From Hymenobacter aquaticus (GTDB lineage Bacteria > Bacteroidota > Bacteroidia > Cytophagales > Hymenobacteraceae), in contig NZ_SRLC01000001.1 in assembly GCF_004765605.1 (NCBI RefSeq), forward strand, positions 1,984,001 through 2,048,000: a DNA stretch of 64,000 nt. The letters run 5' to 3'. Position numbers and translations under genes: made by a program. Position 1 is the first letter of the stretch, and each line of letters begins with the position of its first letter. The notes beneath the pieces are model-generated. The model saw only the letters and a program-made list of their open reading frames with translations. It did no database searches and was not told the origin of the DNA. Below, piece by piece: positions 4,075 to 64,000 of the stretch.

Positions 4075-6696
4075 ATGCCCTACACGAATCTTAAGCTGCC
4101 CGAACTTTCCCTGGTGTTGCTCATCGGCACGTCCGGGGCGGGCAAGTCGACGTTTGCCCGCCGCCTGTTCCGGGGTTCCGAAATCGTGTCGTCGGACCAG
4201 TGCCGGACGCTGGTGTCCGATGACGAAAACGACCAGGCCGCCACGCCCGACGCCTTTGCCCTGCTGCACTACCTGGTAGGTTTGCGCCTCAAGCGCGGCC
4301 TGCTCACGGTGGTCGACGCTACCAACGTGCAGCCCGAAGCCCGCAAAACCCTGGTCCAGCTGGCCCGCGACTACCATGTGCTGCCCACGGCCATCATCCT
4401 CGACGTGCCCGACCGGGTGGCCGAGGACCGCAACCGCGCCCGGGCCGAGCGGCAGCACATGGGCCGGCACGTGGTGCCCCAGCAGCGGCAGCAACTGCGC
4501 CGCAGCCTCAAAACGCTCAAGCAGGAAGGCTTCCGTCACATTTTCCACCTGCGCGGCCCCGAGGAAATCGACGCGGTGCAAACCATCGTGCGCGACCCGC
4601 TCTACAGCAACCGCAAGCAGGATACCGGCCCCTTCGACATCATCGGCGACGTGCACGGCTGCTACGACGAGCTGCTGCAGCTGCTCGCCAAGCTGGGTTA
4701 CACCGTGGAAACCGAGCCCGCGCTGGACGCCCGCGACTTGGGCGTGCGCGTGACGTCGCCCGACGGCCGGCGAGCCCTGTTCCTGGGGGATTTGGTGGAC
4801 CGGGGCCCGGCTTCCCCGCAGGTGTTGCGCCTGGTAATGAGCATGGTGCAGGGCGGGCAGGCCCTGTGCGTGCCCGGCAACCACGATATCAAGCTGTTGC
4901 GCTATCTCAATGGCAAGCAAGTCAACGAGAAGCACGGCTTCGCCGAAACCGTGGCCCAGCTGGCCCAGGAGTCGGACACGTTCAAGAGCCAGGTGCGGCA
5001 GTTTCTGGACGGGCTGGTGAGCCACTACGTGCTGGATGGCGGCAAGCTGGTGGTGGCCCACGCCGGCATGCGCGAAGAAATGCAGGGCCGGGGCTCGGGT
5101 GCCGTGCGGGCCTTTGCCCTCTTTGGCGAAACCACCGGCGAAATCGACGAATTCGGCCTGCCCGTGCGCTACAACTGGGCTTCCGAGTACCGCGGCCGGG
5201 CCACGGTGGTCTACGGCCACACGCCCGTGCCCGACGCCGAGTGGCTCAACAACACCATCGACATTGATACCGGCTGCGTGTTTGGCGGCCGCCTCACGGC
5301 CCTGCGCTACCCCGAGCGGGAGCTGGTGGCCGTGCCCGCCGCCCAGGTCTACTGCGAGCCCGCCCGCCCGTTGGATTACCTGCGGATTCTAGCCGAAGCC
5401 AACAACCAAAAATCAGAAACCGACCACCAACTATCCGCCCAGCAGCAGCACGACGAGCTGCTCGACATCCGGGACGTGCTGGGCAAGCAGATCATCAAAA
5501 CCCGCCTGCTGCCCTCGGTGACCATTCGGGAGGAAAACGCCACGGCGGCCCTGGAGGTGATGTCGCGCTTTGCCCTGAACCCGAAGTGGCTGCTGTATTT
5601 GCCGCCCACGATGAGCCCCTCGGAAACCAGTGCCCTGCCCGATTTGCTGGAGCACCCGGCCGAGGCCTTCGACTACTTCCGCCGCCAGGGCCTGAGCCGG
5701 GTGGTGTGCGAGGAAAAGCACATGGGCAGCCGCGTGGTGGTAGTGTTGGCCCAGAGTGAGGATGCCGCCCGCCGCCGCTTCGGCGTAGTGGGCGAAGGTC
5801 CGGGCAAGGTGTACACCCGCACCGGCCGCAACTTCTTCAACGACCCGGTGCTGGAAGCCGCTTTCCTGGAAAAGCTGCAAGCGGCTCTGACGGCGGCCGG
5901 CTTCTGGGAACGGTTCCAGACCGACTGGCTGTGCCTCGATGCCGAGCTGCTGCCGTGGTCGGCCAAGGCCCAGGAGCTGATCCGCAACCAGTACGCCGCC
6001 GTAGCCGCCGCGGCCACCGCCGCGCTGCCCGAAGCCGCCGCCGTGCTTACCCAGGCCGCCACCCGGGGCCTCGACGGCGTGGAGGCCCTGCTGGCCCGCA
6101 CTTCGGCCCGGCAAACCGCCGCCCAGCACTACGCCGAGGCCTACCGCCGCTACTGCTGGCCGGTGGAAAGCCTGGCCGATTTGCGCCTGGCCCCGTTTCA
6201 TTTGCTGGCCACCGAGGGCAAAACCTACTTTGACAAAGACCACGCCTGGCACATGGAAACCCTGCGCGCCCTGAGCCAGGCCGACGAAAGTCTGCTCCGG
6301 GCCACGCCCTACCGCGTGGTGCACCTGCAGGACATTCCCGACGTGGAAGCCGCCACCCAGTGGTGGCTGGATCTGACGGCAGCCGGCGGGGAAGGCATGG
6401 TGGTGAAGCCCTACGACTTTATCCCCGAGGGCAAAACCCTGGTGCAGCCGGCCCTCAAGTGCCGGGGTCGGGAGTACCTGCGCATCATCTACGGCCCCGA
6501 CTACCTGCTGCCCGGCAACCTGGAGCGCCTGCGCGAGCGGGGCGTGAAAGCCAAGCGCAACCTAGCCCTGCGCGAGTTTACGCTGGGCGTGGAAGGCCTG
6601 GAACGATTCGTGGCCGGGCAGCCGCTGCGGGCCGTGCACCAGTGCGTGTTCGGGGTGCTGGCCCTGGAAAGTGAGGCCGTCGACCCGCGGCTGTAG
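4075..6696 (+). CDS. pnkp: Polynucleotide kinase-phosphatase-ligase (bacterial Pnkp)
   Basis: An 873-residue three-domain RNA repair enzyme. The N-terminal 5'-OH polynucleotide kinase has P-loop GTSGAGKST at residues 18-26. The central 2',3' phosphatase is a metallophosphoesterase, with GDVHG near 191, GDLVDRGP near 239 and GNHD near 268. The C-terminal nucleotidyltransferase domain has EEKHMGS with the likely AMP-accepting Lys548. The enzyme heals the ends made by RNA-cleaving toxins and, with Hen1, seals them. Length matches the family. It starts at ATG 4075. The downstream RlaP-type genes support an RNA-repair locus. Confidence 0.95.
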   Translation: MPYTNLKLPELSLVLLIGTSGAGKSTFARRLFRGSEIVSSDQCRTLVSDDENDQAATPDAFALLHYLVGLRLKRGLLTVVDATNVQPEARKTLVQLARDYHVLPTAIILDVPDRVAEDRNRARAERQHMGRHVVPQQRQQLRRSLKTLKQEGFRHIFHLRGPEEIDAVQTIVRDPLYSNRKQDTGPFDIIGDVHGCYDELLQLLAKLGYTVETEPALDARDLGVRVTSPDGRRALFLGDLVDRGPASPQVLRLVMSMVQGGQALCVPGNHDIKLLRYLNGKQVNEKHGFAETVAQLAQESDTFKSQVRQFLDGLVSHYVLDGGKLVVAHAGMREEMQGRGSGAVRAFALFGETTGEIDEFGLPVRYNWASEYRGRATVVYGHTPVPDAEWLNNTIDIDTGCVFGGRLTALRYPERELVAVPAAQVYCEPARPLDYLRILAEANNQKSETDHQLSAQQQHDELLDIRDVLGKQIIKTRLLPSVTIREENATAALEVMSRFALNPKWLLYLPPTMSPSETSALPDLLEHPAEAFDYFRRQGLSRVVCEEKHMGSRVVVVLAQSEDAARRRFGVVGEGPGKVYTRTGRNFFNDPVLEAAFLEKLQAALTAAGFWERFQTDWLCLDAELLPWSAKAQELIRNQYAAVAAAATAALPEAAAVLTQAATRGLDGVEALLARTSARQTAAQHYAEAYRRYCWPVESLADLRLAPFHLLATEGKTYFDKDHAWHMETLRALSQADESLLRATPYRVVHLQDIPDVEAATQWWLDLTAAGGEGMVVKPYDFIPEGKTLVQPALKCRGREYLRIIYGPDYLLPGNLERLRERGVKAKRNLALREFTLGVEGLERFVAGQPLRAVHQCVFGVLALESEAVDPRL

Positions 6697-6706
6697 GGGT
6701 GTAGGC

Positions 6707-7156
6707 TTATTGTTGACTGGGCGCAGCAACTTCGGAGCAGACAACTGGTGTAAGCACCCGGTTAGGGTCGAACCAAATGGCTTCCCTGGTTTTGAAGGTA
6801 AATAGCCCCTCACTCTCCTTGATATCACCAAAGCCCTCTACGAAGCCGTTGCTTTGCCGCAGAAAGGCGACAGGCGCAGCAGTTTGACTGAGCTGGCCGT
6901 TGATTTCGAGACGGTAACTAGCCAGCAGCGTATCCCCGTGCATCTGGCCCTGGATACGGCCTTGATTACGGTCTGGGCCGGCATTATACCGAATGTACCC
7001 CGTCACGGCTGACGAGGTGATACGCAGGCTCAAACTGATGGTGTCCTCGTCGGAATAGTGAGCGTAACAGTGCTGCTGAGTTGTCGGGGCCTCTTGACAA
7101 GCGGTTAGCCCGGATAGACCCAAAGCAAAATACCAGCGCAAAAGATTTTTTTTCAT
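6707..7156 (-). CDS. Putative lipoprotein, function unknown
   Basis: A 149-residue protein with a lipoprotein signal: MKKNL, a hydrophobic stretch, and a lipobox ending in LTAC, so the mature protein would start at Cys20. The rest is polar and beta-rich (repeated SLRITSSAVTGYIRY-like strands) and was not recognised as a known domain. It is on the strand opposite to the RNA-repair genes and ends only ten bases from the end of pnkp. It is probably unrelated to RNA repair. Confidence 0.7.
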   Translation of the reverse strand: MKKNLLRWYFALGLSGLTACQEAPTTQQHCYAHYSDEDTISLSLRITSSAVTGYIRYNAGPDRNQGRIQGQMHGDTLLASYRLEINGQLSQTAAPVAFLRQSNGFVEGFGDIKESEGLFTFKTREAIWFDPNRVLTPVVCSEVAAPSQQ

Positions 7157-7240
7157 GAACCAAAGCCTGGGACGAAGCGGGACTGAATAATAGTCTCAAT
7201 CTAATGACTAATCCTGGTTTTGCCTATCCGCCCTCCCCTC

Positions 7241-52324: not shown

Positions 52325-53073
52325 TCGGCGCTGGTCTAATACATGGTGCAACGTCGGTTATGCTCGTCAATGACGAGTTGAATGCGCACGTGATGCATGG
52401 CCAGGGAGCGGCTGAATGAGCAGGACTTGCGCACGAGCACGCCGCACCGCTGCTGTAGCGAACAGTTGATGGCTTCGACGATGCTGGTTTGTCTGCTGCC
52501 CTTGGCGCAGGCTTGGTGCGCCCGCTTGGGCAACACGCCTTCGTAAGCCTCCTACTCGTCGGTGTAGTACCAGGTGCCGGTGCGATACGGCTTGGGCAGG
52601 GCCCGCCACAGACGCCGGGTGGTGGCGCGGCCGCGCGAACCGAGCACCCCGGCGCGAATGCTGCTTGACAGCTAGCCAAAGCCATTTTTTGCGCTGTTTG
52701 CGGCCTACAAAGGTCCACAGCTTATCCAGCTCCAACTCCTTCACCCGCCGCGGCAGCGGGCTGCTGGTCGGCGTGGTCTGCGCTTTTTTTGCCAGCTTGG
52801 CCACGGTCGTGCGTGCCACGCCCGTCAGGCACACGATGGCCCATTGCGAGACGCGTTCGAGCAGCGGCTTCTCCACCTGCGCGTATTGTGCGGCTTTGCG
52901 CGGAGCCGCCGGGGCAAACACGGCCTGATGCCGGCAGGCTGTACACAATTACTTGGCCTGGCCACAGCTGTGCCCATTCTTACGCAGGGCCGTGCTTGCG
53001 CACTTGCCACAGCTGAGTATCGTTTGGATCATGCTACCCTTTACGACAAAACCACGCTTTAGACCACCGCCGA
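52325..53073 (-). mobile_element. IS1-family insertion sequence, degenerate
   Basis: The ends TCGGCGCTGGTCTAA (52325-52339) and TTAGACCACCGCCGA (53059-53073) are inverted repeats with one mismatch. The length of ~750 bp fits IS1. The internal frames match InsA and InsB on the minus strand. Confidence 0.8.
52333..53032 (-). pseudogene. IS1-family transposase (InsA/InsB), broken
   Basis: InsA begins at ATG 53032 (MIQTILSCGKCASTALRKNG) with the zinc-ribbon cysteines. It is cut by a TAA directly before LCTACRHQAVF and continues as VARTTVAKLAKKA. The InsB part reads ELELDKLWTFVGRKQRKKWL, then needs a frame change near 52,650 and another near 52,550 to reach SRQTSIVEAINCSLQQRCGV and HVRIQLVIDEHNRR. 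Several independent lesions show that it is inactive. Confidence 0.8.
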
Positions 53074-54810: not shown

Positions 54811-56742
54811 TCAATCTAACTGAACTTCCTCTGCAATAGTCTCTGCAATAGCGACCTTATAAAAAGAAGCAAGTACTCGTGCTAAGCGCTTGACTCTATA
54901 ACGCTGAATTCCTGAAGGTGGAACTTGTGTGTTCAAGTATTCAATTACTTTATGCCAAAAGGCATTTTCTGCTGAGGCATGATCATAAGCGGCTCTGAAT
55001 TGCAGCAAGCTAGGGACTTGCGTGAAGGTTGGGATGTAAGCTAAAAGTTGGCGGGCAAAATACTCAGGGTCTAGGTCTGCAAATAAGGGGAGAGGCAGTT
55101 GAGCGCGCTCGCTTGCAAATGCAAGTAATTGATTGATATCATCCGCCAATAACTCTTTGGCTCTGGCTTGGGCACCTGCAATCTTCTGTTTGATAAGCTG
55201 TTCGTTGTAATGCAATGTAATGCAACGCAATCTGGACAAGAATGAAAAGTCTATCCCTTGCTGTATACCACTAAGGCTTAAAAACTGCTTTGCGTTAGGG
55301 ATGGGTCCAGAGTGCGAAAGACTTTTTTTCATGCCTCGAGCTAGACGCATTGTTACTTCCTCTCGCATTAAACTTAACGGATTGCCAAAAGCTAGTACTT
55401 TCCAATACAGCGTAATGTAATCACCAATTAAATAGGCCCCAGCATCAACGTAATTCAACACCTCTTGAACTGCTTGCATATACTGCTTATCATCTAGAGT
55501 CATAATGTATTCGTATTCCAAATTCAATAGAGCTCTTTGCTCGGGGCGCAAATGACCTTTGGAATCAATTGGAAAAACAGCAGCCAATTCTGCAATGAGC
55601 TCATCCGCATTAATGGCAATACCGCTTACTAGGTAATCGAACGTGTGAGCAAAAAAATGGTATTTTATTTTTGTTCCATGATAATATTTTCCCAATATGG
55701 ATCCACCTACCGTTTCTGGCTTTGAAGTAGAGTCACTTTCGGGTGACTGCAGACTCAAATGTTGACCTAGCTGCATTACTACTGAATCAAGACTGCTTCG
55801 ATCCAAGTAGGAAAGCTTATTACGCTGGTGTTCATTAAATATAGCTGCTGAGAAGCGCACTAGTGCTGGCAGAGCTGAATCCAAGTGAACTTGCTTTGTT
55901 AATGCCCCTTCCTCGGCTACAGTTAGTGAAGAGTAAAGAGGCAACATTTTGTGCGCAAACCTAATAAGGGTACGCAGGTTGTCCTCCGGAAACAACTCTA
56001 TTAAAAGATCGCGCTGAGTTAGAAGGAACCTCTGAAAAACGACTTGATCAGGAAATTCAGCGGCAAGCACATCGTCAAGTACATCTGCTAGTGATTGAGT
56101 AAAAGCTAAGGTTTCTCCAATAACCTTTTCTTTCAAAACCTCCAGCTGTGGGGACTTTATCTCATCTTCATTTGCAATAGCAATAAGTTTGAATCCGTTG
56201 TCAACGAGAGTATTTAAGTAACCTAGTAAAGTAGTTAAATCTAAACCCTTTTCACCTATACCACGCTCGATATCGTCTACGCAGATGACAAACCGCCGAA
56301 AATCGACCAGGCTCTTAGCCATCTTTTTACTCCTGCTTCTAAACCAAGCAAAAATATCAGTAGCTGATTCCTCCACCACTTTACCACCCGCCTGAGTTAT
56401 ACGCCAGTCGCTGCCGGTTTTGAACGTCAGAAAGGCTTTAGTGAACAATCCAGCACACTTAGCCAGCAGATTACCGGTGCCTTCGCTTAAAAAAGGCAGG
56501 AGCTGCACAAATATTTTAGTTTCTACTTCTTCAATGCTAGCAAGGCCAAAGACCGAGAGCTCAATGATTTCGTACTTAACAGAAGCATCACCCAAAGTTG
56601 GTGTGTCCTTGATCATTGGCGTTAGCTTATGGCGAAAAAAATGCGTCTTTCCGCTGCCCCACTTTCCTGTTAAGAGCAAAGCGTAATTAGCTCGGGAAAC
56701 CAAGTAATGTCGAACAGCATCAGTGGTATTAGTAGTAGGCAT
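54811..56742 (-). CDS. KAP-type P-loop NTPase
   Basis: A 643-residue protein. Walker A is GKWGSGKTHFF near residues 26-36, and Walker B is FVICVDDIERG, the combination seen in the KAP family of large P-loop NTPases, often tied to defence or membrane scaffolding. No transmembrane insertion is obvious, so it is probably cytoplasmic. The C-terminal ~350 residues are helical with no recognised domain and could sense a partner. ATG 56742 is used (a TTG precedes it). An IS5 remnant begins about ten bases upstream, so its original promoter may be lost. Confidence 0.7.
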   Translation of the reverse strand: MPTTNTTDAVRHYLVSRANYALLLTGKWGSGKTHFFRHKLTPMIKDTPTLGDASVKYEIIELSVFGLASIEEVETKIFVQLLPFLSEGTGNLLAKCAGLFTKAFLTFKTGSDWRITQAGGKVVEESATDIFAWFRSRSKKMAKSLVDFRRFVICVDDIERGIGEKGLDLTTLLGYLNTLVDNGFKLIAIANEDEIKSPQLEVLKEKVIGETLAFTQSLADVLDDVLAAEFPDQVVFQRFLLTQRDLLIELFPEDNLRTLIRFAHKMLPLYSSLTVAEEGALTKQVHLDSALPALVRFSAAIFNEHQRNKLSYLDRSSLDSVVMQLGQHLSLQSPESDSTSKPETVGGSILGKYYHGTKIKYHFFAHTFDYLVSGIAINADELIAELAAVFPIDSKGHLRPEQRALLNLEYEYIMTLDDKQYMQAVQEVLNYVDAGAYLIGDYITLYWKVLAFGNPLSLMREEVTMRLARGMKKSLSHSGPIPNAKQFLSLSGIQQGIDFSFLSRLRCITLHYNEQLIKQKIAGAQARAKELLADDINQLLAFASERAQLPLPLFADLDPEYFARQLLAYIPTFTQVPSLLQFRAAYDHASAENAFWHKVIEYLNTQVPPSGIQRYRVKRLARVLASFYKVAIAETIAEEVQLD

Positions 56743-56751
56743 GTGCAACTA

Positions 56752-57462
56752 AGCGTCTGTATGGAAATTGCTTTGGGGCTAAAAGAAAACGAGCTAGCGA
56801 ATTGCAGGCGAAGTTCCTAGGCTCCGGTCCGCATGATGGTTGACAGCTATCAACCTCTCTGACTCGCAGTGGCAAGGTATTACACCTTGGCTGCCGCTGC
56901 AAAGCAAGCGAAACTTGTGCCTACTGCGAGCTGTTGAAGCGTTGTAGTACGTGTGCAGCCCTAGCCCGCGGTATACTACTTCCGCCGCTGGCAATAAAAC
57001 GGCACACTGTAGTAACTGAACCTGGGCTTAAACGAGGCGGACCAGCAGGCGCAGGGGCAACCGCCCACACAGCAGTGCTGTGCCCGGGCGGCCAGAGCTC
57101 CAAATTAGCCCCGTGCATCGCCGAGCACCGCGGCAGGAACAAGGCAAGTGCATGAATGGGTGCAAACGGCTGCTGCTAGTAGACCAGCAGGGCCGTGTCT
57201 GGGCCGCTGATCGCAAGCGGCCAACTAGCACGACAGCCGCTGCGTGGCCCCTTGCTGCTTGAGCACCGGTACTTGAAGCCACTCCTGACCATCTCTGTGA
57301 CGGACCGCCCCTACCGCGGCTGCTTCACCGAAGGGCCGATAGAGCGCGGCCAGCGCCACAAAGTTATTAACTGTCCAGCGTACACCCGTGAATTCGTGTC
57401 GATAGACTGCCGCTGTGTATTGGAACGCTCTTTCGCTTAGCTTAACTTCTTCTGCCGACTCT
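56752..57462 (+). mobile_element. IS5-family insertion sequence, copy 2, degenerate
   Basis: The left end AGCGTCTGTATGGAAAT and the stretch GTTCCTAGGCTCCGGTC match the copy at 48,922. The transposase (ATGGTTGACAGCTATCAACC...) carries several stop codons and deletions, and the last readable part is LERSFA-stop-LNFFCR. It is cut off by an IS110-type fragment at about 57,463. Confidence 0.75.
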
Positions 57463-57766
57463 GGATGAAGTGCCGCACGACGATGGGGTTAAGCACGGCC
57501 AACTCGGCGCCGGCCGCTATCAGATGGTAAGCCAGGACAAGGTAGTAGGTGCCGGCGGCTTCCATCACGTACAAGCTAACAGCTCCGCAGCGACGTACCA
57601 GCTGGCGGAAACTCGCCGGCATGTTGCGCACTTCCAGGTGCCGCAGGCTATGACCCAGTTGGGGGTACACGGCCAACTGGGCTTTGCTTACATCGCCGCC
57701 ACCAGGGCAGAAGTTAGTTACATACGAAACAGTAACAGAAGGGAAACGTGAGGCGACGTCATCCAC
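57463..57766 (-). pseudogene. IS110-family transposase N-terminal fragment
   Basis: Roughly 100 residues on the minus strand: GDVSKAQLAVYPQLGHSLRH, YVMEAAGTYYLVLAYHLIAA and LAVLNPIVVRHFIQS. These match the DEDD catalytic N-terminal half of IS110 transposases (DVSKA..., MEATG.YY..LA..L). The C-terminal Ser-containing domain is missing where the IS5 remnant abuts. No gene follows in 57,767-58,011. Confidence 0.7.
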
Positions 57767-58011: not shown

Positions 58012-58323
58012 CTATTTGTCGTTCAAATCAGCCGGATGGTGTTTAATATAATAGTCGAGCTGCTTTTTCTCATACAGAACTCGATTATCAGATACATGAA
58101 GTCCAAGTACCAGTCCTTCACGTCGCAGCTTATTCAAGGTAGGTTTGCTAATGTGCAGGTAGGATAATGCCTGCTTAGTCGTAAGATACACCGGCTCAAA
58201 TGCTGAGTTCCTCGAATTGATCTGAGACATCGGTACTTCTTTCAACAGCACTTGAATTTTTTCATTTATGATTTCGGCAAGGAGCCGCCGTAGTTTCTTC
58301 GCGCTTACTATCAGGATTTTCAT
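58012..58323 (-). CDS. Excisionase-like helix-turn-helix protein
   Basis: A 103-residue protein with the helix-turn-helix YLTTKQALSYLHISKPTLNK followed by LRREGLVLGL, typical of excisionase/MerR-like DNA binders. It is the intact paralog of the frameshifted gene at 46,433 (strong identity over the HTH; tail LDYYIKHHPADLNDK). The two copies, in the same orientation, bracket the 11-kb IS and defence region. Probably a recombination directionality factor of a lost element, or a regulator. No integrase is seen in the window. Confidence 0.75.
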   Translation of the reverse strand: MKILIVSAKKLRRLLAEIINEKIQVLLKEVPMSQINSRNSAFEPVYLTTKQALSYLHISKPTLNKLRREGLVLGLHVSDNRVLYEKKQLDYYIKHHPADLNDK

Positions 58324-58539: not shown

Positions 58540-59697
58540 TTATACCCCTAGCATTGAAAGCACAGCATTGATCTGGTCAACAAAGAGGGTTGATGCGTAG
58601 TCTAGCTCAGTTGAATTATTAAACCGCCCTAAACCTACTCGGACTGTAGCGCGGGCATGGTCACGAGAAAGACCTATGGATAGCAATGTAGTGGAGGGCT
58701 CGATGGTACCGGAGTCGCAAGCGGAACCAGTACTGAGCGCTATTATTGGAAGCCGAGCAAGTAAAGCGTCGGCTTCAATACCGGGAAAAGTAAGACTGGA
58801 GTTGTGAGGTAAGCGCAACGCAGGGTTGCCATTACGGTAAGCATTCGGTACTGCATTGATTACCGCGCCCTCAAATTCGTCGCGGAGGGTAGCCAGACGC
58901 ACCGATTCGGTCGGCAGCAACTCTTGGCAGCGGGCGCAGGCTGCCCCAAGGCCAACAATGCCAGGCACGTTCAAAGTGCCCGAACGCCAACTGCGCTCCT
59001 GACCTCCGCCGTAGCTGAGCGGTTCGAGCTGAGTACGGCGGGGCTGGTGCACAATGAGGGCCCCAATGCCTTGAGGGCCGTAGAGCTTGTGGCCGCTGAT
59101 GGACAGCATGTCTACTCCCCAAGTCAACACATCCACCGGAATTTTACCGACTGCTTGCGCTGCATCAGTATGCAAGCGGGCACCAACAGCGTGGGCCAGT
59201 TCAGCTAGTTTGGCAATAGGTTGGATGGTGCCTACCTCGCCGTTGGCGGAGTGGACGGATACCAATAGTGTTTGATCATTGATGGCCTCTCGAGCAGCAG
59301 CAAGGTCAATAGTGCCTTGAGAATCAACAGGCAGCACTACTATCTCAAATCCTTCGCGGGCTAGCTGTTTCGCGGGGTTGGTAACCGCTTTGTGCTCGAT
59401 AGATGAAATGACAATGCGCCGGCGCGGGTTGGTGGCGCGGGCAGCGCGTGCGTAGCCTAGTAATGCCAAATTATTGGATTCTGTTGCACCACTAGTGAAG
59501 ATAACCTCGCCGGGTTGGGCCCCTACCAACTCTGCTACTTGCTCACGGGCTTGCTGCACGGCATCAGCAGTGCGGGCGCCAGCAAAGTGTGGTGACGAGG
59601 GGTTACCGAACTGGCCCTGAAAAAAGGGCAGCATGGCTTCCAGCACGACTGGGTCGCAAGGGGTAGTAGCGTGGTGATCGAGGTAAATGAGTGACAT
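58540..59697 (-). CDS. Cysteine desulfurase in the BREX-type operon
   Basis: A 385-residue pyridoxal-phosphate enzyme of the IscS/DndA class that moves sulfur from cysteine to a carrier. The PLP lysine is Lys204 in SISGHKLYG, and the catalytic cysteine is Cys327 in STGSACDSG. The start DHHATTPCDPVVLEAMLPFF is typical. ATG 59697 begins four bases after the brxL stop, so it is co-transcribed. Its place at the end of a BREX-type operon suggests sulfur-based DNA modification, as with DndA in phosphorothioation; this is inference. Confidence 0.92.
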   Translation of the reverse strand: MSLIYLDHHATTPCDPVVLEAMLPFFQGQFGNPSSPHFAGARTADAVQQAREQVAELVGAQPGEVIFTSGATESNNLALLGYARAARATNPRRRIVISSIEHKAVTNPAKQLAREGFEIVVLPVDSQGTIDLAAAREAINDQTLLVSVHSANGEVGTIQPIAKLAELAHAVGARLHTDAAQAVGKIPVDVLTWGVDMLSISGHKLYGPQGIGALIVHQPRRTQLEPLSYGGGQERSWRSGTLNVPGIVGLGAACARCQELLPTESVRLATLRDEFEGAVINAVPNAYRNGNPALRLPHNSSLTFPGIEADALLARLPIIALSTGSACDSGTIEPSTTLLSIGLSRDHARATVRVGLGRFNNSTELDYASTLFVDQINAVLSMLGV

Positions 59698-59701
59698 GGT
59701 A

Positions 59702-61195
59702 CTAGGACCGCTCAACGGTAATGTAACGGCCGTACTTGCGGTACTCGGCATCGATGGTGTAGAGCTGGTCCCACACGCCTTGCCGAAGCTTGATGGCGGG
59801 CTCAACGCAGTACTTGTAGAATTCGGCAGGGGTGACTTCACCGTGCGGGAACAACAGCTTCATGTAGCCGCTGGCTAGAGCGCGCACACTCTCCTGATTG
59901 CGCTGGTATGCGTCTGGGCCAAGATTGATGTGACGGGCGCAGTAGGCATCGGTGGTGAGTTCCTGGCGCAGATGCAAGAGAATGTCGCTGAAGTAATCAG
60001 CTTTCAGACCGCTCTGCTCGGCGAAGCTAGCCGGAGAGAGTTTGGGTACTTCCCAACCAGGAATCATGCCCTTGATGCGGTCGAGAAAAGCGGTTTCCTG
60101 CAGGAAGACGGGCAGTTCACTTACGACTAAAGGCTCGTTGGCGGGGCGTTGGTTGGCGTCGAGCGTAATGTTGGCCAAAAGCACAAAACCGCAATCAGAG
60201 GCCATTTCGTGCTTGCCCCCGCGGGAGATTTTTCCGTTAGCGAGGTAGCCTTTCAGGCCGCCTACTATTTCGGCGGGATTATCGAATTTGAGTGTTTGAA
60301 CTTCGTCAAGCACGACCACCGCATAGCGAGCTAAGATGCCAGGCTGATTGGTTTGGTTGTTGACGAAGAGCACCGACGGCGAGACATTGCCTCCGCTGAC
60401 GAGGCGCACGAGAGGGGAAATATTCTCGTAGATGTAGCTCTTACCCGTGCCTTTGGGCGCCAGCTCCATTAGATGCACGTTCTTCTGCACCAGCGGCAGC
60501 AAACGGGCTAGTACCAGCTGCTGGGCTTCGGGGCTGTAAGCAGCAGGATTATAGCCCATGGTAAGTAGCAGCAGAGCCCGCCATTCTTCCAGCTTGAACT
60601 CGCGTCTAGCCTCGCGCCAACGGTCGAGGTTGACGGTGGCTTGCATGGGCTGGAATTCCGTGATAACAATGCCCTGGTCGCGAATGTAGAGCAGCTGCGC
60701 AACGCCCCACATGCCCTGCTGGAGCAATGCCGGATAAGCTTCGAGCAGGTGTTCGGCAATCTGGGCACGGTCCTCCCCTATCATGGGCAGCTTGGCCACC
60801 CGTTCGGCCTTTTTTCCCGACAGCACTACATCAACCTGCACGGGAGTCAGGATGCGCACCGACTCGCCATTGAGCAGGCGGTTTCGGATTATGTTGCCTT
60901 CGTCAGGTTTTGGCACCACCCGAGCAGCCCAGTCTAGTACTTTGGCGGCATCATCGGCAGATAACGGACCTCGACCTGGTACTTTGGATTCCAAGACCCA
61001 CTCGGCCACGTAGCCGGGGATACCACGGCTTTGCAGCTTGGAAGCACCCAGGCGGCGCTTATCAATCGAAACGCTGCCAAACACCCGCTCTACTTTGGCT
61101 TCTAAGGCGGCCATATCGACGCCATTGGTCAGCGGAGCCAGCGTGGGAGCAGTTGGTTCAAACAAGGTGAACAGGTCGTCCGAATTGGTATTCAT
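59702..61195 (-). CDS. brxL: BrxL-type ATPase, short form
   Basis: A 497-residue AAA+ protein close to BrxL of BREX systems: Walker A APKGTGKSYIYENISPLVRL, Walker B YAVVVLDEVQTLKF, then GGLKGYLANGKISRGGKHEM, ANITLDANQ and FLDRIKGMIPGWE. BrxL of type 1 BREX is about 680-700 residues and ends in a Lon-like domain. Here only ~140 residues follow the ATPase, and no Lon Ser-Lys dyad region is seen. Start ATG 61195, 18 bases after the pglZ stop. Confidence 0.85.
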   Translation of the reverse strand: MNTNSDDLFTLFEPTAPTLAPLTNGVDMAALEAKVERVFGSVSIDKRRLGASKLQSRGIPGYVAEWVLESKVPGRGPLSADDAAKVLDWAARVVPKPDEGNIIRNRLLNGESVRILTPVQVDVVLSGKKAERVAKLPMIGEDRAQIAEHLLEAYPALLQQGMWGVAQLLYIRDQGIVITEFQPMQATVNLDRWREARREFKLEEWRALLLLTMGYNPAAYSPEAQQLVLARLLPLVQKNVHLMELAPKGTGKSYIYENISPLVRLVSGGNVSPSVLFVNNQTNQPGILARYAVVVLDEVQTLKFDNPAEIVGGLKGYLANGKISRGGKHEMASDCGFVLLANITLDANQRPANEPLVVSELPVFLQETAFLDRIKGMIPGWEVPKLSPASFAEQSGLKADYFSDILLHLRQELTTDAYCARHINLGPDAYQRNQESVRALASGYMKLLFPHGEVTPAEFYKYCVEPAIKLRQGVWDQLYTIDAEYRKYGRYITVERS

Positions 61196-61213
61196 GGTAC
61201 AAGCAAAGATAGA

Positions 61214-63526
61214 TTACAGGTCGCCCAGCAGGTCGACTTGCTGCGTTTGGAATTCGTCGGTGCTGAGTTGATTGATGAGCGGGAACGTTAGCTCCTGCCC
61301 GTCGGCTTGCTCAACTACGATGCTCACTTCGGCCGAGCCAATGCGCTGCCCGGTAGGCCAGTCGGCCAAGGATAGCGTTAACGTAGTAGTTTGCTTGCCC
61401 CACACAGTTCCTGCTGCACTCAGCTCGCGCACTGTGCCGGTGGTAGGCCAAGCAAGCACGAGACGACGCACCTGCACAGGGTGGTCGCCGTGGTGGGTAA
61501 GCTGTAACGTAACTGGACCCGTAGCCCCTACCCTAGTGCGACCGGCTGCACTACCAGATATGCGCGCAGGAACAACTTGGCGGCCTAGGCAAAGCCAAGG
61601 CACCACGACTTCCTCGGGCCAGATACCGCCGTGCGAGAAGTTGTCGGCACCGCTGGCTTGACTGCCATCGGGACGGCACACGCGGAAGCTGCGCTCATCA
61701 CGCACCACCCCCACCCAACCGGGTAGATTAAACCAAGTGTTTGGGTCGAGCCAGTGGATATCGGGGGAAAGCTCAGGAGCTGGCCCGGCGCCAAGGCGGT
61801 AAGCTACCCGTCCATGGGCTTCAAAGCCATCTGGCACCGGGATTTCACGGGTACATGGCCCCAGCATGCGGCCGTGGTCGGTGGTGAGCAGTACGCGCAA
61901 CGCGTGGGCACGCGGAACCGCTCTAGTTATATCCACAATAGTTTCGGCCAAGTTGCGCAAAATGCCGCGCACTGAGCGGCGCACCACAGACAACTCTCCC
62001 TTTTCGTGGTAAGCTTCGTCTGGCTGCAGCGGTTTCCATACAAGCATCTGACCACCTTGTAGCTGCCGGGCGCGGCTCACCGGGTCTTGACTGTCGCGCA
62101 CGTCGCTGTCGGCTTCCGCTTTGAACTGGGCTTGGTGCAATTGCAACTGCTGGTACGGAAGGCCAGCCCGAACTGGGTCTTTGGTGAACTTGGTGATAGT
62201 GGGCAGCAAGCCAAAGCAAGGCGTAGCCTGCGTGGCAGCTACATTGCCGTGAGAGAGTTCGTGCACGAGGCGGGCCAACAAGCGAGCATCATTCCATCCC
62301 AAGCCGTCAGCAATTACCCATACGACAACTTCGTTGGCGTGCTGGGGCTTGATGCGGGTGGACTGGGTCCAGTACAGCTGCTGGTACGGGTGAGTCGCGC
62401 CGGTGAGCTGGGCTGGGTACGTACCTAATAACCACTCCCCAAAGGCCAAAGCATGAGTACGGGCTGTAGCGGCTGCCTGCGGATTATGTTCTTGCTCGGC
62501 CTGCCACGCTCGATAGGGCAAGTATTCATCGGTCACCCAACGGAGCACCGCTTCGGGCTCAGTGGGCAAAGCAGTTGGCTCGGGTGGGGGGAGCAACTTC
62601 TGTAAGCGGGTGTACTCGGCGGCAGGAAGGCTGCCACGCAGGGCCCGCAGCAAGTCATCGGACAGCACGGGAGGCTGCTCGTCGAGATAACGTAGCACCA
62701 CATCCAAAGCTGCCGGGGTGAGGTCGGCGTGTCGGATGGCCGCACGGGTTTGGCCCCACCAAGCGGCAGCCGCTAAGCCTGCTTCGGTACCTGCTGGCGC
62801 GGCAGCTACTTGTGCACGTAGCTCGTCGTCCCACTGCTGTTTGGCTTGGGCAACCCACTCCACTGGCAACGGCAAAGGGCACTCTTCTAGCTGACTTAGT
62901 GCTTGGTATTCTGGGTAGCTAATGGCAGCGTCGGGTAGACCACACCAGGCGCGAAGCAGCTCTCGCGCCCCTGCGGCGGAGAAAGGCAACAAATGGTAAG
63001 CCGCGGCTGATTCAGCTTGCCAGCGGCTCACCCAGGCGCGCAGCACCGGTTCAGAGACGGAAGGCACACCATTAGTAGGTAGCAGCCACGACAGCCACTG
63101 CGCCGTCAAAGCCGACAGGGCCGCGGATTCGGCGCTGGGCTCGGCCTGCCAGAGCGTAGTGGCTTCGGGGTGTAAAGCCCCTAAAATGGTTGGCAAGTCC
63201 AGCGGGGTTGGCCAAGATGCTTCTCCCCACACAACTAGCAATTGTTGGGCTAACGCCTGGGCTTCGGCTGTAGCGAGGGAAGGCACAGCTTGGCGAATCT
63301 TTTCGCCGGGCGAAATAAGATGCCGGCACGAACCGCCGGCTTGTTCCCACCATGCTTCGGCCCAGTGGACTAGGGCTGATCCGCGCACTACTGCGGGCGC
63401 AGCTTGCCCTTGTGCTGCAAGCACGGTATAGCGCAGCCACTCTACCTCAGAGGTGAGAAGTGCGTGGCCGTGCGGCACTGGAGCATCGCCAAACGGATCG
63501 AGCAGAAGAACTTGGTTTGTTACCAC
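61214..63526 (-). CDS. pglZ: PglZ-domain protein of the BREX-type operon
   Basis: A 770-residue protein. The alkaline-phosphatase-like PglZ core is in the second half: VVWVIADGLGWNDARLLARL, LLTTDHGRM and FSHGGIWPEEVVVPWL. PglZ is the shared hallmark of BREX systems. The N-terminal ~300 residues are helical and variable, as in the family. The start appears to be GTG 63526, nine bases after the upstream stop; no ATG is nearby. The C-terminal ~110 residues are beta-rich. Confidence 0.85.
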   Translation of the reverse strand: MVTNQVLLLDPFGDAPVPHGHALLTSEVEWLRYTVLAAQGQAAPAVVRGSALVHWAEAWWEQAGGSCRHLISPGEKIRQAVPSLATAEAQALAQQLLVVWGEASWPTPLDLPTILGALHPEATTLWQAEPSAESAALSALTAQWLSWLLPTNGVPSVSEPVLRAWVSRWQAESAAAYHLLPFSAAGARELLRAWCGLPDAAISYPEYQALSQLEECPLPLPVEWVAQAKQQWDDELRAQVAAAPAGTEAGLAAAAWWGQTRAAIRHADLTPAALDVVLRYLDEQPPVLSDDLLRALRGSLPAAEYTRLQKLLPPPEPTALPTEPEAVLRWVTDEYLPYRAWQAEQEHNPQAAATARTHALAFGEWLLGTYPAQLTGATHPYQQLYWTQSTRIKPQHANEVVVWVIADGLGWNDARLLARLVHELSHGNVAATQATPCFGLLPTITKFTKDPVRAGLPYQQLQLHQAQFKAEADSDVRDSQDPVSRARQLQGGQMLVWKPLQPDEAYHEKGELSVVRRSVRGILRNLAETIVDITRAVPRAHALRVLLTTDHGRMLGPCTREIPVPDGFEAHGRVAYRLGAGPAPELSPDIHWLDPNTWFNLPGWVGVVRDERSFRVCRPDGSQASGADNFSHGGIWPEEVVVPWLCLGRQVVPARISGSAAGRTRVGATGPVTLQLTHHGDHPVQVRRLVLAWPTTGTVRELSAAGTVWGKQTTTLTLSLADWPTGQRIGSAEVSIVVEQADGQELTFPLINQLSTDEFQTQQVDLLGDL

Positions 63527-63535
63527 GGAGCGAGG

Positions 63536-64000
63536 TTACGCCGGTTGATATTCAAGGAGCTGCTGCAGACGAGCCAACAGGGCCTTTTGCTCGGTGCGGT
63601 TGTTGATATCGAGGAAGGCCTTTTCAGCGAGGCTGGCTTTGTCTTGCGCCACGCGGCGCTGCAATGCCTTCTCGAGGGCGTCGCGGGCGGGCTTCTCCTC
63701 GTCGGGCAGGAAATCTAGCTTGCGCTCCAACTCGACCAACAGCTGAGCCGGTGGGTCCCCTGCGGCATTGCACTGGGTTAACTCGGCCAGCTTAACACTG
63801 GCGGCGCGGCGCTGCTCGTCGAAGCGCTCTTCCAGTCGGGCCCGCTCCTGCTGTACCCGTTCTACCTGAGCCACGGAGAGACCGGGTTTAGCGGCCAAAA
63901 CGTCGTATTCCTTGAGCACTTTACGAAGAGCGTCGGCAGTCTTGGGTTTGCCCGTGCGCAGCTCGGTTAGCTGAGTCACAAACTTGTTGCTCCGCTCAGC
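63536..64000 (-). CDS. C-terminal part of a probable BrxC-type protein (runs off the window)
   Basis: The frame is open to the window edge and ends at 63,536. The ~154 visible residues are almost entirely charged coiled coil (LRTGKPKTADALRKVLKEYD; RVQQERARLEERFDEQRRAA). No catalytic motif lies in this part. Gene order (this gene, pglZ, brxL) matches type 4 BREX, where brxC/pglY precedes pglZ; the name rests on order only. Confidence 0.5.
   Translation of the reverse strand, partial: AERSNKFVTQLTELRTGKPKTADALRKVLKEYDVLAAKPGLSVAQVERVQQERARLEERFDEQRRAASVKLAELTQCNAAGDPPAQLLVELERKLDFLPDEEKPARDALEKALQRRVAQDKASLAEKAFLDINNRTEQKALLARLQQLLEYQPA

Follow-up and report, generated by a model that had tools for sequence, protein, structure and literature searches.

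A predicted operon of Hymenobacter aquaticus combining SspABCD phosphorothioation genes with a methylase-free BREX core

A 64,000-nucleotide stretch of the Hymenobacter aquaticus genome (positions 1984001-2048000 of contig NZ_SRLC01000001.1; genome size 5.5 Mb), hereafter the window, ends inside a minus-strand operon with the gene order sspB-sspC-sspD-(SBD-DUF4007)-brxB-like-brxC-pglZ-brxL-sspA, where SBD denotes a sulfur-binding domain. The operon appears to comprise a complete SspABCD phosphorothioation (PT) module and a bacteriophage exclusion (BREX) core equipped with an ATPase and a DUF4007 protein of its own. It probably encodes a compound phosphorothioate-BREX system, in which the core would block unmarked DNA. 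The gene content of the locus, its order, the conservation of that order across phyla and the domain homology of the encoded proteins were observed directly. The recurrence of the order across genera and in two other phyla confirmed, on comparative grounds, that the four genes at the end of the window form a real unit, beyond chance.

The nine-gene operon

The four genes at the end of the window (58540-64000) were all located on the minus strand. The 3' end of a brxC-like ATPase gene (63536..64000, with the rest of the gene beyond the window) was followed by pglZ (61214..63526; 770 amino acids [aa]), a short form of brxL (59702..61195; 497 aa, with Pfam domains BrxL_N and BrxL_ATPase only) and sspA (58540..59697), which encodes an SspA/DndA-type cysteine desulfurase. 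The sspA open frame extends to 59841, and its start is most likely at 59697 (MSLIYLDHH) rather than at the far GTG of the 58540-59841 frame. Since this start gives gaps of 9, 18 and 4 bases, the open reading frames bore out both the gene order and the spacing described in the original prediction, which had been made from the window alone.

The desulfurase matched the Pfam Aminotran_5 domain (9.9e-82) as well as the PADLOC SspA and DndA models (5.6e-141 and 1.3e-140, respectively). Its SGHK lysine and STGSAC cysteine loop are both present, and we take these residues to have their usual meaning in desulfurases. BrxL was matched by Pfam (BrxL_N, 2.5e-17; BrxL_ATPase, 1.5e-99) and by PADLOC (3e-186). 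The PADLOC PglZ model matched the product of pglZ at 3.7e-50; the Pfam PglZ score was 14.9 bits, which is under the 25-bit cut-off. The motifs ADGLGW, TTDHG and FSHGG were all found in this protein and presumably form the PglZ metal site. The only Pfam PglZ match above the cut-off in this genome was elsewhere, in a response-regulator-like protein (L003) that we take to be PorX, and was not the operon pglZ.

The upstream genes, also on the minus strand, are given in L002 coordinates (L002 8001 corresponds to window position 64000). The whole brxC-like ATPase gene occupies L002 7537-11871 (a 1478 aa open frame; 1444 aa from the likely ATG) and is preceded by a small brxB-like gene (L002 11934-12473; 179 aa) and by the gene for the SBD-DUF4007 protein (L002 12498-13766; 422 aa), the ATG of which overlaps the sspD TAA by one base. 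The sspD gene (L002 13766-14593) encodes a 275 aa member of the 3'-phosphoadenosine-5'-phosphosulfate (PAPS) reductase family (PADLOC SspD, 7.5e-114). It is preceded by sspC, which is split into two frames (L002 14590-17172 and 17215-17955; PADLOC SspC, 1.3e-61 and 1e-194 for the two parts), and sspB (L002 17960-18949; 329 aa; PADLOC SspB, 3.3e-93). SspA, SspB and SspD of the SspABCD writer are all present. Two ATPases are encoded, SspC and BrxC, as are two DUF4007 proteins.

In agreement with the original prediction, Pfam scans of the operon proteins revealed no PglX or other DNA methylase. No SspE or SspFGH was found among the nine operon proteins in PADLOC scans. Across the whole genome, the one SspE model that was run (PDLC02785) had no match, and the one SspF model run (PDLC02793) gave only a weak partial match far from the operon (3.3e-4).

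Occurrence in other genomes and on plasmids

The operon order was found in at least 12 of 204 Hymenobacteraceae genomes, a lower bound; 11 of these loci were recovered via the second DUF4007 protein and one, G072, via BrxC (150 genomes). Two plasmid loci, from Thermomicrobium roseum and Pseudanabaena galeata, brought the number of compared loci to 14. The T. roseum plasmid carries the exact nine-gene order with the desulfurase last, and the P. galeata plasmid carries the same order with four inserted genes (a PemK/MazF-type toxin, two hypothetical genes and Uma2). The pairing of desulfurase and brxL, which had been put forward as a point to check, proved to be conserved: sspA lies directly after brxL in 10 of the 12 family loci (it does not in G051 or G072) and in both plasmid relatives. 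An Annamia plasmid carries DUF4007, the small gene, a fragmented brxC, pglZ, brxL and sspA; sspB, sspC and sspD were unmatched within the 19.9 kb read.

The SspD protein was detected at 1e-30 or better in 20 of 395 genomes sampled from the phylum. In the stretches of up to 20 kb around these genes, a BREX core was present beside SspD in two, namely this genome and G011; one stretch ends at a contig end and another (G455) ends inside sspD, and cores lying further off would be missed. SspD was also found on 69 plasmid records, and two of the ten that were opened carry the core (T. roseum and P. galeata). On the HL-69 plasmid the core is represented by brxL fragments only; this incomplete cyanobacterial locus (L094) also has its sspC in two frames. 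A BrxC profile matched six of the 395 phylum genomes, two of them over the full length, and a scan of genome contigs returned four loci, all from Hymenobacteraceae. When four BrxC proteins were compared with 72,556 plasmids by tblastn, each matched three to six records, at most one of which was covered by 80% or more; such few matches indicate that the compound layout is not common on plasmids.

Exchange between loci

The two halves of the operon recombine among loci. The P. galeata plasmid pPg_05 and plasmid b of Pseudanabaena ABRG5-3 share 83.5% DNA identity over 7.0 kb, from sspB to Uma2, and 93.2% over a further 1.9 kb that contains the desulfurase and ParA genes. Between these shared blocks there was no blastn match of 100 bases or more: the interval holds the BREX core in P. 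galeata and SspF, SspG and SspH (2.3e-236, 8.6e-203 and 0, respectively) in ABRG5-3, together with two small genes, a DUF262 gene and a kinase gene.

Similar replacements were evident within the family. The Ssp proteins of the Hymenobacter pair G593 and G552 are 96% (SspB), 97% (SspC), 98% (SspD) and 87% (SspA) identical, as against 50% (BrxA), 34% (BrxB), 37% (BrxC), 37% (PglZ) and 69% (BrxL) for their cores. Conversely, G593 and IS2118 are 96, 89 and 98% identical in BrxC, PglZ and BrxL, as against 74 and 82% in SspB and SspD. The trees conflict in the same way, with G593 joined to G552 on sspC (100/100) and to IS2118 on brxC (100/100). In another locus, G051, a core resembling that of Adhaeribacter rhizoryzae (BrxC, 72%) is joined to SspB, SspC and SspD of the G072 type (47, 49 and 63%).

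In an Abditibacteriota plasmid and in G288, a core built in the same way comes after an Eco57I-type methylase. In these loci (L099 1733-14383 and L045 98-13069) an Eco57I/MmeI-type methylase gene is followed by DUF4007-like, small AAA-like, BrxC, PglZ and BrxL genes, the arrangement of a methylase-type BREX where DUF4007 stands in for BrxA. Judged by these alignments and trees, the core has been exchanged as a unit, in one case for SspFGH, and related bacteria appear to trade the writer and core halves independently.

Proposed model and the sulfur-binding protein

In the model that we favour, SspA would free sulfur from cysteine and pass it to SspD, a PP-loop enzyme. SspB and the SspC ATPase would then attach it to the DNA backbone at selected positions, probably to a single strand, as other Ssp systems do. 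The genes between them and sspA would form a methylase-free BREX core, in which the second DUF4007 protein takes the part of BrxA and is joined by the BrxB-like protein, the BrxC ATPase as a scaffold, the nuclease-like enzyme PglZ and the DNA motor BrxL. This core would block the replication of DNA that lacks the mark, and in the H. aquaticus lineage the SBD on the BrxA-like protein would be the reader that ties core to mark. The PT chemistry, the reading of the mark and the exclusion step are all inferred from the genes.

The candidate reader was recognised from residues 8-135 of the second DUF4007 protein, which match SBDHga1 (PDB 8h0l) with E=1.4e-24. The sulfur pocket described for ScoMcrA has H116, R117 or K, and P165 (PMC6224610); in our reading of the alignment the corresponding positions are H25, K26 and P76. 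Both this genome and IS2118 have the domain, A. rhizoryzae has a decayed form of it, and the remaining 11 of the 14 loci showed none at this place. The SspD proteins of the three SBD loci (G000, which is this genome, IS2118 and A. rhizoryzae) are 92-93% alike, and seven other SspD proteins of the same broad type, which lack an adjacent SBD, are 79-84% identical to them. On trees of 12 loci (G072 and P. galeata omitted), presence of the SBD required one change on sspD and three each on sspC and brxC. These results suggest that the SBD goes with an SspD subgroup and not with the BREX core. Sulfur-binding domains are common in the family, mostly elsewhere in open frames of about 320-390 aa. An AlphaFold model of the IS2118 SBD-DUF4007 protein had a mean predicted local distance difference test (pLDDT) score of 53.5.

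Several observations, given here and in the next two paragraphs, weigh against the proposed model. The sspC gene of this strain carries one in-frame TAG and is the sole sspC match in the genome at 1e-10; in the 13 other compared loci of the same layout sspC is a single open frame. Little or no marking is predicted in this strain as a result of the stop, and its PT writer may be dead, with DNA marking off. Sulfur marking, as originally suggested for this locus, is still the best reading of the genes, although it may not take place in this strain. With regard to the reader, an SBD in only three of 14 loci, one of them decayed, implies that it is not essential in general. Support for the SBD-linked sspD subgroup was only 81/82, with 79% of bootstraps, and plain physical linkage of the SBD to the adjacent sspD could explain their co-inheritance.

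Two gene names also rest on weak similarity. The large ATPase matched the PADLOC BrxC model at 0.0034 only, and is called BrxC on account of its place before pglZ, the Walker-like motifs ATYGHGKS and LVLFDEF, and a distant relative, the G072 ATPase (1.1e-10), which itself matches the SspC (4.1e-58) and BrxC (8.2e-13) models. The brxB-like name of the small gene is tentative. This gene is conserved in position across loci. A model of the L015 protein (mean pLDDT 73.9) gave a best VIA-align Z score of 8.8, to YjoB, where models without a clear match typically reach Z 7-8, and Foldseek found no match to it at E 0.001 or better. Small genes at the same place in the two methylase-linked loci gave AAA and iSTAND matches, all under the Pfam cut-offs. 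An AAA-like fold of the small protein is therefore only weakly suggested by the model.

Motifs were also incomplete in some loci. The patterns were our own and may be too strict. In H. aquaticus every pattern was found, and the SspD SGGKDS motif was present in 14 of 14 loci. All three PglZ motifs were found in 10 of the 14 loci; two were found in G552 and T. roseum, one in G072 and none in P. galeata. The P-loop pattern of BrxC was found in all loci except P. galeata (13/14) and that of BrxL in all except T. roseum (13/14). All 12 desulfurases have the GSAC loop, and nine have SGHK. Activity is less sure in the loci that lack a pattern.

An alternative is that the mark activates the effector, as with SspE, instead of protecting against it, as with SspFGH, so that the SBD would recruit the core to PT-DNA. 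The SBD of ScoMcrA guides a nuclease to PT-DNA (PMC6224610), and the survival of an intact core next to a broken sspC suggests that cells tolerate the core when PT is missing. Against this, the cassette that the core replaces is SspFGH, which attacks unmarked DNA (PMC8092258), and the sspC stop could be recent or an assembly error. Activation was judged to be unlikely, but worth keeping in view beside the protective role that we propose.

Comparison with known systems

The original prediction called the locus type 4-like BREX, with type 4 defined as brxP-brxC-pglZ-brxL, and proposed looking upstream for brxC and a PAPS-reductase brxP. A PAPS-reductase family gene (sspD) and a brxC-like gene were indeed found; a fused BrxP was not, and the type 4 layout did not hold, since the operon has a separate 275 aa SspD, two ATPases and two DUF4007 proteins. 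The BrxP model matched the unfused SspD at 4.4e-9 only, and full-length BrxP was detected in two of 296 phylum genomes, this one not among them. Likeness to type 4 BREX (brxPCZL) lies in the PAPS-reductase and DUF4007 domains, PglZ, a short BrxL, the absence of a methylase, a frequent desulfurase and reported PT; the operon differs in having separate SspB, SspC and SspD without a fused BrxP, and an extra DUF4007 protein, a BrxB-like gene and a second large ATPase. The general BREX combination of a PglZ with metal-site motifs and a BrxC-type ATPase is present. As for SspABCD systems, the intact SspC that characterises them is missing from this genome.

These similarities raise the possibility that the operon is a type 4 BREX in which BrxP has been split into SspD and a DUF4007 gene and an ATPase added, with no separate architecture. 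PAPS reductase, DUF4007, PglZ, a short BrxL and a desulfurase are shared with type 4 (PMC12839542). The PADLOC library also mixes the SspC and BrxC names: its 'BrxC' model PDLC02478 matches T. roseum SspC (L072 8372-11698) end to end, with 2632 bits, T. roseum PglZ and BrxL are entered as BREX models, and T. roseum BrxC has no PADLOC model match at 0.01. Such loci may therefore have been filed under BREX before, and the second ATPase seems to have been overlooked when they were catalogued. Against a split BrxP, the three type 4 loci that were opened (G246, G193 and Methanosphaera) have a long BrxP of roughly 786 aa and one ATPase with PglZ and BrxL, whereas this operon joins all the Ssp genes to a core that already has an ATPase and a DUF4007 protein. 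In the BrxL phylogeny, 13 of the 14 compound loci formed one group (97/95), separate from the type 4 sequences, of which there were three (100/100). The PglZ evidence was weaker; the same 13 loci grouped at 88/92, the type 4 sequences fell apart and the deep forks were weak. The remaining locus, G072, was a long branch. Its PglZ grouped with the methylase-linked cores (89/94), and its BrxL lay with those cores and the type 4 sequences, a placement within which the tree did not settle; G072 may be a second, independent coupling or a tree artefact. Overall, a split BrxP was considered quite unlikely.

It is improbable that the two halves are unrelated defence-island neighbours, an Ssp module beside a BREX that lost its methylase. 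The halves do recombine independently, and the core lies beside SspD in only two of the 20 SspD-bearing genomes of the phylum sample. However, in 12 of 14 loci the BREX core separates sspA from the other ssp genes, the junctions of this operon are tight or overlapping, the order is kept in three phyla and the core fills the SspFGH slot. Very little credence can be given to the view that the desulfurase is a housekeeping-like gene adjoining brxL by chance: no desulfurase lies beside the core in G051 or G072 and the genome has two other relatives (45% and 38% identity), but the gene is placed directly after brxL in most family loci and both plasmid relatives, its SspA/DndA scores are near 1e-140 and all 12 copies retain the cysteine loop.

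Compared with SspABCD-SspFGH, the compound phosphorothioate-BREX system would share the SspABCD writer, with the effector cassette in the same slot on the Pseudanabaena plasmids, but its effector is a BREX core and not SspF, SspG and SspH. Compared with the methylase-type BREX loci of the Abditibacteriota plasmid and G288, it has the same order of DUF4007, small AAA-like protein, BrxC, PglZ and BrxL, but SspABCD takes the place of the Eco57I/MmeI-like methylase as writer. Its sulfur-binding domain is homologous to those of type IV enzymes such as ScoMcrA and SBDHga1, with the H/K/P pocket kept, but is fused to a DUF4007/BrxA-like protein rather than to a nuclease. PbeABCD was considered as an effector and rejected, being a CxC ABC-ATPase system (PMC6459918, PMC10853773).

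A broader proposal is that such operons form a distinct BREX class, in which an exchangeable SspABCD writes the mark and an SBD fused to the BrxA-like subunit reads it. Writer and effector would be freely traded cassettes, with the same core serving methyl or sulfur marks and the same writer serving SspFGH or BREX. This we advance only tentatively.

A 2025 paper counts brxPCZL as one of the gene families for PT synthesis, with Yuan et al. among the sources that it cites for antiviral activity (PMC11931770), and a 2026 survey reports that 255 of 457 type 4 taxa have a desulfurase (PMC12839542). Type 4 BREX as a PT system with a linked desulfurase is already published; the coupling of sulfur chemistry to PglZ and BrxL that the original prediction singled out is present here, and is not new in itself. 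In the literature searched, the figures or supplements of which may show the layout, we found no account of a compound layout with two ATPases, of a slot swap between SspFGH and BREX, or of an SBD on a DUF4007 protein.

Flanking and accessory genes

Extra frames lie between sspC and sspD in two Hymenobacter loci (L015 6580-7706; L016 about 6180-7240). The L015 frame encodes an AHJR-like restriction endonuclease (PF18743, 2.3e-18; L015 alone was checked), and the other frame looks RusA-like, which is our assumption. The slot after sspD holds a gene for a 288 aa protein in G072 (L014 7510-8376), with a weak GIY-YIG match of 0.012 that is under the cut-off, and a Uma2 endonuclease gene in P. galeata; this slot may collect accessory genes. 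In G455 (L044 4238-19715), an SspA-like desulfurase is near a HerA-domain protein, a DUF4007-like protein and a BrxC-like ATPase, and this stretch gave no PglZ or BrxL match. In three cyanobacterial Ssp loci (L092 7190-9430; L073 2935-5049; L096 4385-6559) a gene annotated 'DNA phosphorothioation-associated putative methyltransferase' lies upstream of sspB on the opposite strand.

Directly downstream of sspA in the window is a gene for a small HTH_17 protein (58012-58323). Further downstream is a KAP P-loop NTPase gene (54811-56748), which matches the PADLOC candidate defence family PDC-S49 (4.9e-39) and is flanked by IS1 and IS110 transposase matches under the cut-off (52367-52948 and 57437-57766) that are probably fragments.

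Significance

In a 2021 survey, most of 2,678 sspBCD loci had neither SspFGH nor SspE next to them, and other restriction partners were raised as a possibility (PMC8092258). For some of these loci, a BREX core that occupies the SspFGH slot supplies a concrete answer. The SBD carried by a BrxA-like protein gives direct access to the question of how BREX could read a mark, and the natural swap pairs make writer-effector specificity testable without design. The operon could thereby show how such systems tell their own DNA from viral DNA.

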